A DNA stretch of 21,638 nt. Origin: a virus. The notes beneath the pieces were generated by a model that was not told the origin of the DNA, made no database searches, and was given only the letters and a program-made list of their open reading frames with translations. The stretch is taken from IMG/VR virus record IMGVR_UViG_3300021963_000750, positions 1 to 21,638 of that record. One strand, written 5' to 3'. Positions 8,636 to 14,697 of this stretch are shown here, piece by piece. Position numbers and translations under genes: made by a program. Position 1 is the first letter of the stretch; the number at the start of each line of letters is the position of its first letter.

Positions 8636-8812
8636 CTGACAGTAGTTTATTTGTCCAGTATTTTCAATACAGTATTCAACACCTTTTTTAGAAACTGTTC
8701 TAATAATTTACTTCCCAGATGGATATTAAGTAGTCTCTAGTTCATTCCGCTAACCGAATGTATCTCCTAATATAATCCTACCTCAATATGAAATGAAGTC
8801 TTCAATAGACAC
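8636..8812. other. Non-coding gap upstream of glutaredoxin
   Basis: No convincing open frame or tRNA was found. One short hairpin is visible, CATTC (8743-8747) pairing with GAATG (8756-8760) across an 8-nt loop, with no T-tract. It ends at the strong promoter for glutaredoxin. It may hold a degraded gene or leader sequence. Confidence 0.4.
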
Positions 8813-8841
8813 TTGACAAGGTGTCCCATAGTTGCTATAAT
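8813..8841 (+). promoter_or_regulatory. Consensus sigma70 promoter before glutaredoxin
   Basis: TTGACA (8813-8818), 17-bp spacer, TATAAT (8836-8841): perfect match to the bacterial housekeeping consensus, 26 nt before the ATG at 8868. Expected to be read early by unmodified host polymerase. Confidence 0.8.
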
Positions 8842-9586: not shown

Positions 9587-10162
9587 ATGACAGCGACAAA
9601 AACAAAAGCAAAAACAACTCCATCGGTAAGTATTGATTTGCCGGCAAATCCTTTTACCTTTGAGGTTCTGAATTTAGTATCTAAGCAAAGAACCAATATT
9701 AAAAAAGTTGAGGTTCTACAAAAATATAATGACCCATCACTCAGGGCAATTTTTATCTGGAACTTTGATGAAAGTTTGACATCTGCTCTTCCAGAGGGAA
9801 TTGTCCCTTATGCAAGTGTTGGGGAACAGGGTTCATTTAGTGGAACTCTAAGTGAAAAGATTGATGATGCCGTAGGTAAAATGAATGAAATTGGTTCTAA
9901 TTCACTTGGTTCACAAGACCAGGGTTTTTCATCAATTCGTAAAGAATATTCAAAGTTTTATAATTTTATTAAGGGTGGGAATGATAGTCTGAGCTCTCTT
10001 CGTAGAGAAACTATGTTTATTAATGTTCTACAAGGTCTTCATCCTTTAGAGGCAGATATTCTGTGTCTAGTAAAAGATAAAAAACTTGAGACGAAATATA
10101 AAATCACTAAAGAAATTGTTTCTCAGGCATACCCAGAAATTGTATGGGGGGGTCGTTCGTGA
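9587..10162 (+). CDS. Conserved cyanophage protein of unknown function (DUF6433-like)
   Basis: A 191-residue protein with a Lys/Thr-rich N-terminus and middle segments 'NPFTFEVLNLVSKQRTN' and 'EVLQKYNDPSLRAIFIWNFD'. The C-terminal part (FINVLQGLHPLEADILCLVK, then YKITKEIVSQAYPEIVWG) resembles the T4-like phage family I know as DUF6433, where 'L.GLHPLEA..L...KDK.L' and 'YP..' recur. No enzyme motif is visible. An additional stretch (~85-110) is Gly/Ser-rich. The next gene starts at the stop as GTGA. The family name is from memory and less certain than the reading frame. Confidence 0.65.
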   Translation: MTATKTKAKTTPSVSIDLPANPFTFEVLNLVSKQRTNIKKVEVLQKYNDPSLRAIFIWNFDESLTSALPEGIVPYASVGEQGSFSGTLSEKIDDAVGKMNEIGSNSLGSQDQGFSSIRKEYSKFYNFIKGGNDSLSSLRRETMFINVLQGLHPLEADILCLVKDKKLETKYKITKEIVSQAYPEIVWGGRS

Positions 10163-10494
10163 GTAAAACTGTAGCAGTAGAGGAAGAAATTATGCAGTGG
10201 ACTCCAGAAGAAAAAAAAGAAACTTCTTCTCGTTACGGTTGTGAAATTATTTTTGAACGTACTAATCTTGCTCAAGTAAAAGATCCTTCTCTACCAAATG
10301 ATGCTTATCTAATTCTTTATCGTGTGGATGGTGAAAATTATGTAGACTTATGTCGTGGAACTAGAGTTAAAATCTTTGATATGTACTATGATAAGTTTGG
10401 ACCAGGATCGGTTCAAAAAATTGACTTTGGATACGGAAGAGTATCTCCTAGACTATGGGGATACCGAGCACCCGAAAAGAAAAGGCGAAAGTGA
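10159..10494 (+). CDS. Small conserved-looking protein of unknown function (111 aa)
   Basis: GTG 10159 is chosen as start: it overlaps the upstream stop (GTGA), sits ~8 nt after a G-rich run (10145-10151) that can pair with 16S rRNA, and gives MSKTVAVEEEIMQWTPEEKK. The ATG at 10144 would overlap the neighbour by 19 nt. The product contains GCEIIFERTNLAQVKDPSLP and DAYLILYRVDGENYVDLCRG, suggesting a compact alpha/beta fold, and a basic tail (YRAPEKKRRK). No domain is recognised. It is the last gene before the terminator at 10551-10580. Confidence 0.6.
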   Translation: MSKTVAVEEEIMQWTPEEKKETSSRYGCEIIFERTNLAQVKDPSLPNDAYLILYRVDGENYVDLCRGTRVKIFDMYYDKFGPGSVQKIDFGYGRVSPRLWGYRAPEKKRRK

Positions 10495-10550
10495 TTTCCT
10501 AGAAAGGCGGAAAAAAATCCCCCAAAAAATTCACCCAAAAAGGGTTTTCA

Positions 10551-10580
10551 AGAGAGGATTGACAAGTCCTCTCTTTTTTT
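10551..10580 (+). terminator. Intrinsic terminator that contains a promoter -35 element
   Basis: Stem AGAGAGGA (10551-10558) pairs perfectly with TCCTCTCT (10567-10574), loop TTGACAAG, followed by six T's (10575-10580). The loop carries the TTGACA of the next promoter, so termination of the upstream unit and initiation of the downstream one share the same bases. Confidence 0.82.
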
Positions 10581-10587
10581 GTATAAT
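10559..10587 (+). promoter_or_regulatory. Consensus sigma70 promoter embedded in the terminator
   Basis: TTGACA (10559-10564), 17-bp spacer, TATAAT (10582-10587), followed 21 nt later by the ATG at 10609. The spacer is made of the terminator's right arm and T-tract. Confidence 0.8.
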
Positions 10588-10608
10588 GGATTCAGAATAT
10601 CAATATAA

Positions 10609-10752
10609 ATGGATACTGAAAGATTAAAACTTATTATTCGGAATATGGAATTGCTTTTAGATTCTCTCAAGGCAGAGATATATTCTGATATACCACAATA
10701 CAAGTATGATGACATTAAACCAGAGGAAATTGACTATGATGAGGTTTTTTAA
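10609..10752 (+). CDS. Small acidic protein upstream of thyX (47 aa)
   Basis: ATG 10609 to TAA 10752, first gene after the consensus promoter. The product is MDTERLKLIIRNMELLLDSL, then an acidic tail rich in Tyr/Asp (YKYDDIKPEEIDYDEVF). The N-terminal half looks like an amphipathic helix. No clear ribosome-binding site is seen, and the leader is short. Similar small proteins precede thyX in cyanophages as far as I recall. Function unknown. Confidence 0.6.
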   Translation: MDTERLKLIIRNMELLLDSLKAEIYSDIPQYKYDDIKPEEIDYDEVF

Positions 10753-10755
10753 CTG

Positions 10756-10920
10756 ATGTCCGTAAGAGCAAAAAAACTTGTAAAACTATTAGAAAGATTG
10801 ATTAAGCAAGAGCACTTATATTCTAATGAACAACTTAAGCAAATGAAATCACAACTGCGAGTTGTTAAAGAAGAACTTGCAGAATTAGAAGCAAAAACAT
10901 CAAAAGGATTTGGAAAATGA
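10756..10920 (+). CDS. Small coiled-coil protein upstream of thyX (54 aa)
   Basis: ATG 10756 lies 3 bp after the previous stop; the frame ends TGA 10918-10920, overlapping the thyX ATG at 10917 (ATGA). The product (MSVRAKKLVKLLERLIKQEH to LRVVKEELAELEAKTSKGFG) is nearly all charged helix with heptad-like Leu/Val spacing, predicting a coiled coil. It is most likely co-translated with thyX. Function unknown; a dimeric regulator or adaptor is possible but not supported by a motif. Confidence 0.65.
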   Translation: MSVRAKKLVKLLERLIKQEHLYSNEQLKQMKSQLRVVKEELAELEAKTSKGFGK

Positions 10921-11672
10921 AACCAATTAAAGCAAAAGACCTTCTTGAACTTGACCGTTATATGAAAGTTGTGATGATTCGTCAGACACAACTTCCACAA
11001 ACTCTTGTTTATCAGGCAGGTAAGAATGATTATAGTGAAGACCCTATTCATACCAAGTTTCCTCCTGCGGAAAAGGAATGTGGTAAATGGGTAATTGAGC
11101 AACTTCTGGCAAATGAGAGAGGGCACTGGGGACCACTGGAGCATCCTGCCATTTCTTTGGACTGTGTTGGGTTTGTTCATAATGTAATGGTTCAGGCACG
11201 AACTCACCGTGTTGGAGTTTCTTTTGATGTTCAGTCTCAGCGTTATACCGGTCGTCGTGTATTGAAGGTTGCGACTGGTGACCTGAAACCTGAAGAGGTT
11301 TTCTATGTGCGTCCAGAAGGTCTCTATTTGGACCGTAAAGGGCACAAGTATGAATGGACGAAGGAAGACTACGAAAGGCAGTTAAAGTTCTGTCTGGCGG
11401 CATCTGAGAGGTATGCAGAGGGTTATAATACTCGTGGTATGGCAGAGGAACATCTCCGTGATTATCTTCCTCAAAACATTCGCCAGAACTTTGTTGTTTC
11501 ATTCTCTCTTCGTGCCGCACTTCACTTCCTTGACCTTCGTGCCAAACTTGATGCTCAGGTAGAAATTCAGGCATTATGTGAATCGATGGTGCCAGTAATG
11601 AGAGAATGGGTTCCAGAAATCTTCAGTTATTATGAGGAAAAGCGTCTACACAAAGCACGACTTTCTCCCTAA
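10917..11672 (+). CDS. thyX: FAD-dependent thymidylate synthase ThyX
   Basis: A 251-residue protein with the ThyX signature as RTHRVGVSFDVQSQRY (residues 95-110), a variant of the family RHRxxSxNExSxRY motif that binds FAD and dUMP. Other expected parts are HWGPLEHPAIS (~70-80), and DYLPQNIRQNF near 184-194. ThyX makes dTMP from dUMP with methylenetetrahydrofolate, FAD and NADPH, feeding phage DNA synthesis in the host cytoplasm. Length fits the family. It overlaps the upstream small gene by ATGA and is probably expressed from the promoter at 10559-10587. The long antisense frame here is a shadow. Confidence 0.95.
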   Translation: MKPIKAKDLLELDRYMKVVMIRQTQLPQTLVYQAGKNDYSEDPIHTKFPPAEKECGKWVIEQLLANERGHWGPLEHPAISLDCVGFVHNVMVQARTHRVGVSFDVQSQRYTGRRVLKVATGDLKPEEVFYVRPEGLYLDRKGHKYEWTKEDYERQLKFCLAASERYAEGYNTRGMAEEHLRDYLPQNIRQNFVVSFSLRAALHFLDLRAKLDAQVEIQALCESMVPVMREWVPEIFSYYEEKRLHKARLSP

Positions 11673-14354: not shown

Positions 14355-14676
14355 TTTTTTTGATTCTGATATTATTCAGGATGAACTAAAAGAAATCAAT
14401 CAACTTCAAGAGTTTATATACAATAGTATTTTAACTTTTGGTATGATGCCTCGTGAAGATAAACTGGAACATATTGATAAAATGACAATACTGCTTGAAA
14501 AGCAGCGTATTATGTACACAAGACTTTCTCTTTCTGATGACCCCCAGGCAATTGAGATGAAAGAGAATCTGAGAAGGTCCGTTGCTCTGATGGGATTTCC
14601 ACCAGAGACTGATATGAACATTCTTTTCAGCAGTATGACAAAAACCATTGAGTCACTCAAAAAGTATCTTGACTAA
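14347..14676 (+). CDS. DUF1825-like protein between gp59 and gp32
   Basis: A 109-residue protein whose start (MSSFFDSDIIQDELKEINQL) and helical centre (EDKLEHIDKMTILLEKQRIM, then YTRLSLSDDPQA) match DUF1825, a family found in cyanobacteria and their myoviruses. It overlaps gp59 by 8 bp. Function is not known; the position between gp59 and gp32 suggests a link to replication. Its presence is one of the better clues that the host is a cyanobacterium. Confidence 0.75.
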   Translation: MSSFFDSDIIQDELKEINQLQEFIYNSILTFGMMPREDKLEHIDKMTILLEKQRIMYTRLSLSDDPQAIEMKENLRRSVALMGFPPETDMNILFSSMTKTIESLKKYLD

Positions 14677-14697
14677 TGAGTGATTTTTTGCTATAAT
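14669..14697 (+). promoter_or_regulatory. Sigma70-type promoter before gene 32
   Basis: TTGACT (14669-14674), 17-bp spacer, TATAAT (14692-14697), 42 nt before the ATG. It would allow extra expression of gp32, needed in large amounts. Confidence 0.75.

Follow-up and report, generated by a model that had tools for sequence, protein, structure and literature searches.

In Escherichia coli, one sequence of the frd-ampC region serves both as the end of one operon and as the control region of the next operon. The frd-ampC terminator is located after the promoter and doubles as an attenuator, whereas the element described here, which lies in front of the thyX operon of a T4-like cyanophage, has the -35 hexamer in the loop of the terminator.

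The closest known kind of element is the promoter-early stem-loop (PeSL) of T4-type phages, a composite promoter/stem-loop element that has been linked to gene shuffling (PMC4503421, which cites Arbiol 2010 and Comeau 2014, 'Composite conserved promoter-terminator motifs', for the originals). The same article reports few PeSLs in cyanophage S-PM2. From its sequence the thyX element is predicted to work like a PeSL. Both combine a sigma-70 early-type promoter with a stem-loop terminator in phages of the T4 superfamily, and both border variable gene blocks and coincide with breaks in homology. However, RB49, a PeSL phage, has its parts in tandem: at 12 of 59 strong terminators a -35 begins 14-32 nt downstream of the end of the stem. 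The -35 of the cyanophages mostly lies within the hairpin and begins 12-21 nt ahead of that end. RB49 also contains stems, without a T-tract, that occupy the spacer or surround the -10. The inserted cassettes of the cyanophages were not flanked by two copies of the element. Strict membership in the PeSL class was rejected, because both the tandem geometry of RB49 and the flanking by two copies were missing. The overlap geometry differs from that of the RB49 PeSLs; the original PeSL descriptions are represented here through PMC4503421, and an earlier description of the overlap is possible.

A second described system is the recycling termination of bacteria. Single-molecule work has revealed that intrinsic termination leaves most bacterial polymerases on the DNA, from where they can restart at nearby promoters, with an efficiency that is expected to depend on the distance between terminator and promoter (PMC6978380, PMC11347151). 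The thyX element resembles these cases in that a terminator lies near the next promoter and reuse of the polymerase is conceivable, but there the two elements are separate and their distance is variable, whereas at thyX the distance is zero and bases are shared.

Anatomy and conservation of the thyX element

The window, i.e., the whole stretch of 21,638 bases that was analysed, is a fragment of a T4-like cyanophage, and its gene order agrees with that of Synechococcus phage S-SRM01 (Kyanoviridae, Serangoon Reservoir). On the 3' side of the element two small genes are followed by thyX, phoH and an exonuclease gene. The features are compiled in Table 1.

Table 1. Positions of the thyX element, its neighbouring genes and related elements in the window.
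Feature	Position	Strand	Evidence or remark
Consensus extended -10 promoter upstream of glutaredoxin	8808-8841	+	-35 in 7-bp hairpin GACACTT-GACA-AGGTGTC
Upstream gene, 116 aa, PHROG 485	10144-10494	+	Unknown function; last gene before the terminator
Hairpin left arm AAGAGAGGA	10550-10558	+	Sequence, terminator scan, RNA fold, covariation in relatives
-35 hexamer TTGACA inside hairpin loop	10559-10564	+	Sequence, scan, conservation
Loop TTGACAAG between the arms	10559-10566	+	TTGACA plus AG (10565-10566)
Hairpin right arm TCCTCTCTT	10567-10575	+	Scan, fold, covariation; also first half of promoter spacer
T-tract (T7)	10574-10580	+	Predicted release site for upstream transcripts; also second half of promoter spacer
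G between T-tract and -10	10581	+	Sequence
-10 hexamer TATAAT	10582-10587	+	Sequence, scan; 17 bp from -35
First downstream gene, 47 aa, PHROG 878 family	10609-10752	+	Unknown function
Second small downstream gene, 54 aa	10756-10920	+	
thyX, flavin-dependent thymidylate synthase	10917-11672	+	Pfam Thy1, E 1e-35
Looser element upstream of gp32 (ssDNA-binding protein)	14651-14697	+	Stem AGTCACTCA/TGAGTGATT, T-tract, TATAAT

An earlier note on this DNA had proposed that a terminator and a promoter in front of the thyX operon are built from the same bases, with the -35 in the hairpin loop, a 17-bp spacer and TATAAT. It was verified by sequence, scan and folding that this layout is correct to the base, and sequence and conservation both point to the predicted double use. 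The whole fused element comprises 38 bp. The promoter matches a strong sigma-70-like consensus at 12 of 12 positions with a spacing of 17 bp and is one of three such promoters in a 20-kb scan, in which the hairpin ranked top among the terminator-like sites; the predicted start of transcription is at about 10593-10595. Positions 10550-10575 fold into a hairpin with 11 pairs at minimum energy and -15.7 kcal/mol (z of -2.9 to -3.8, varying with the segment folded), which together with the T7 should be able to act as an intrinsic terminator. In the fold of lowest energy the TT of the -35 pairs with the AG (T-A and one T-G). The -35 is thus located in the hairpin loop as the note had stated, but the full loop of 8 nt did not hold, since the minimum-energy loop is GACA. 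None of the Rfam families searched had a match in the window.

A scan for thyX relatives yielded 80 loci, three of which were left out because they had too little upstream sequence. The informative set consisted of 79 loci, namely 77 IMG/VR relatives, S-SRM01 and the window. The fused architecture was present in 78 of them. Most of these are rather closely related, with thyX sequences that share 92-99% identity with that of the window, and are redundant and not fully independent; the only locus devoid of it was L251, in which the element has been lost. Although the 78 sites had been chosen by promoter and T5 alone and the hairpin was not a criterion, the predicted hairpin enclosed the -35 in all 32 distinct cores, with a median of -14.0 kcal/mol. 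TTGACA was present at 61 of the 78 loci, and both TTGA[C/T] and a spacing of 17 bp were kept at all 78, regardless of whether the loop comprised 6 or 8 nt. An alignment of 20 sequences was gapless, because the spacer is always 17, and in this alignment TTGA, the T-tract (T28, T30-T33) and TA..AT were invariant. The syntenic site of S-SRM01 had the same layout with a different stem (AAAGGAGGG-TTGATT-CCCTCCTTT-TTTTATGA-TAAAAT). In the more distant phage B23 the element was not seen at thyX.

Putative punctuation of transcription

Most probably, as judged from its sequence, the element fuses an intrinsic terminator with a sigma-70-type promoter and serves as constitutive punctuation between operons in a T4-like cyanophage. 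We infer actual termination, actual initiation, their timing and a benefit of insulation as follows. Upstream transcripts would form the hairpin and would be released at the T-tract (about 10576-10582), and the host RNA polymerase holoenzyme would start the thyX-operon transcript at about 10594, some 12 nt downstream, with the hairpin loop serving as the -35 and the right arm and T-tract serving as the spacer. The fusion would insulate the downstream operon from whichever cassette lies upstream. Because the element is self-contained, it could also mark a boundary, and insertion or exchange of cassettes on its upstream side would leave both units undisturbed. Several observations count against the punctuation, namely the loss in L251, the result for B23 and the close relationship of most of the 78 loci (thyX at least 92% identical). 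In addition, by strict criteria Syn9 had no fused element and S-CRM01 only one weak match at background level, indicating that the trait is patchy. Moreover, cyanobacterial promoters often function without a -35, and therefore the hexamer in the loop could matter less than assumed.

It is tempting to speculate that a polymerase is retained on the DNA after termination at the T-tract and restarts at the promoter, so that upstream transcription would feed the thyX operon. The predicted release site is only about 12-18 bp away from the predicted start, and the retention of polymerases after intrinsic termination would fit. However, according to PMC6978380 and PMC11347151 such a reinitiation has not been demonstrated in vivo even for E. 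coli, and the sequence does not require it, as an ordinary promoter would be conserved alike; it is thus possible but rather unlikely. Only tentatively, the zero distance of terminator and promoter in cyanomyoviruses might be regarded as a polymerase relay that chains operons without read-through. If true, cyanomyoviruses would offer a naturally selected example of termination-coupled reinitiation, a process that is known in vitro but not in cells, and for which the element is a compact natural test bed.

Probable exchange of upstream cassettes at the element

The gene directly 5' of the element varied among the relatives, and the downstream operon was kept. The upstream neighbours belonged to unrelated families and included a PHROG 485-like gene, an S-adenosylmethionine decarboxylase-like gene, an endonuclease-like ORF and several small ORFs, names that in the relatives were assigned by eye from the sequence. 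The loci L236 and L237 were identical over 430 bp starting at the left arm of the hairpin, and L237 contained about 830 bp of extra DNA immediately before the hairpin. Insertions abutting the hairpin were also revealed by comparison of the window with L260, L259 and S-SRM01, and of L243 with L305. L236 and L243 shared about 90% identity upstream of and across the T-tract, and their sequences diverged from the -10 on. Homology breaks or gene indels at the element, as in PeSLs, were therefore present. Comparison of pairwise identities on either side of the element yielded mismatched pairs, which were also many at the control junction before thyX, and the breaks given here are therefore exact breakpoints. 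The best reading of these sequences is that the element represents a module boundary where upstream cassettes are inserted, and it could be used as a marker for sites of cyanophage gene-cassette exchange. In L237, a 236-aa endonuclease-like ORF (about 2050-2761) has been inserted after the S-adenosylmethionine decarboxylase-like gene and ahead of the fused element. An origin of L243 as a simple two-parent recombinant was weakened, as L236, L243 and L305 have homologous upstream DNA in common and their first downstream ORFs encode related proteins.

The same insertions in L237, L305, L260, L259 and S-SRM01 and the divergence of L236 and L243 would also be in accord with a mobile recombination cassette, i.e., a PeSL in the strict sense, for which the role in transcription would be secondary. 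But a second fused copy was not found at the far end of the inserted cassettes, the strict fused elements number just 0-4 per genome, and the stems are too divergent to be good substrates for homologous recombination. It is therefore unlikely that mobility is the main role of the element.

The earlier note had further suggested that termination and initiation may exclude each other and thereby form a switch between the upstream genes and the thyX cluster. A terminating or read-through polymerase would occlude the promoter, or a bound holoenzyme would block the upstream polymerase, and the anatomy dictates that the footprints of the two necessarily overlap. This claim found no support, because the upstream neighbour differs across phages while the element is retained, which fits general punctuation. 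In addition, the hairpin forms in RNA and the promoter is double-stranded DNA, so that they do not compete structurally and only a steric interference of polymerases is possible, and neither a bistable feature nor a regulator site was found. A switch is thus very improbable, and punctuation is the preferred reading.

Covariation and occurrence in other phages

Covariation was analysed with the ten sequences that have a 6-nt loop. Two-sided changes were found at 7 of 7 stem pairs, and 97.1% of the cells were paired. Double-change cells numbered 26, whereas shuffles gave 8.2 (0/500) and slid registers no more than 9. In the thyX tree the stem arm next to the -35 had changed at least 21 times, and the 17-bp spacing had never shifted. 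Relatives thus rewrite the letters and keep both predicted functions, indicating that evolution preserves the overlap. The simplest account of the sequences is that hairpin and promoter are both under selection at the same bases. One set of bases would then be selected for two regulatory codes, that of an RNA hairpin and that of a DNA promoter: the stems covary, but both hexamers (-35 and -10) and the distance between them are held constant. That terminator and promoter came to lie together by chance, as might happen in a genome that is compact and rich in AT, can be dismissed for the thyX element. A few weak look-alikes do occur in shuffled genomes (0-1 per genome), but covariation and conservation over 32 distinct cores rule chance out; two dinucleotide-shuffled versions of the window contained no such element.

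The note had also recommended a search in other cyanophages and elsewhere in the genome. Other cyanophages did contain the fused element, at the 78 thyX loci described above and at further cyanomyovirus sites. Elsewhere in the genome it was found in a close relative, the near-complete G001 (233,886 bases), which was used for a whole-genome survey and has two more elements of the same kind on the coding strand in addition to the thyX element and a looser one at gp32; the window itself had the looser gp32 element. A pattern scan of IMG/VR for TTGACA, T5 and TATAAT, which was blind to hairpins, yielded 126 sites. About a quarter of these had a stem of at least 6 pairs around the -35, compared to about 3% after left flanks had been swapped between sites. 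Of 30 contigs with such a hairpin, 27 were cyanomyovirus-like, versus 42 of 90 other contigs. Among 227 strong terminators of six cyanomyoviruses, 27 had a TATAAT that started at most 16 nt from the stem end, where an upstream control predicts about 3; in T4, RB49 and KVP40 together it was 1 of 175. In S-SRM01 and P-SSM2, as many as 9 strong terminators were directly followed by TATAAT. The strict fused elements, 0-4 in each cyanophage genome, compare with 0-1 in shuffled genomes; none was present in T4 or KVP40, and RB49 had one weak match. The results extend composite promoter-terminator elements to cyanophages, in a geometry that was not seen in these three non-cyanobacterial T4-type phages.

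The -35 of the gp32 element is TTGACT within a 17-nt hairpin loop. S-SRM01 has a shorter stem at the same place, AAGGG/CCCTT around TTGACA (L005, 18695-18728). The hairpin at 8808-8841 has no T-tract and is thus not a terminator. Both looser elements, at 14651 and 8808, could have arisen by chance. Repeated relatives of the 8808 element, GGGCAC-TTGAAAACRG-GTGCCC-TTT-TATAAT, were present in S-SRM01 and G001. In RB49 (L127, L155-L160) many early promoters had a palindromic spacer, GGGGATCGGTGATCCCC, or a stem around the -10, GGGTGTATAGCATAATACACCC, in both cases without a T-tract. In P-SSM2 (L189-L201; e.g., record 53940, 132740, 245577) several terminators were directly followed by TATAAT, often as TGCTATAAT, and their loops were no longer -35-like; possibly these sites are fused elements dependent on an extended -10.
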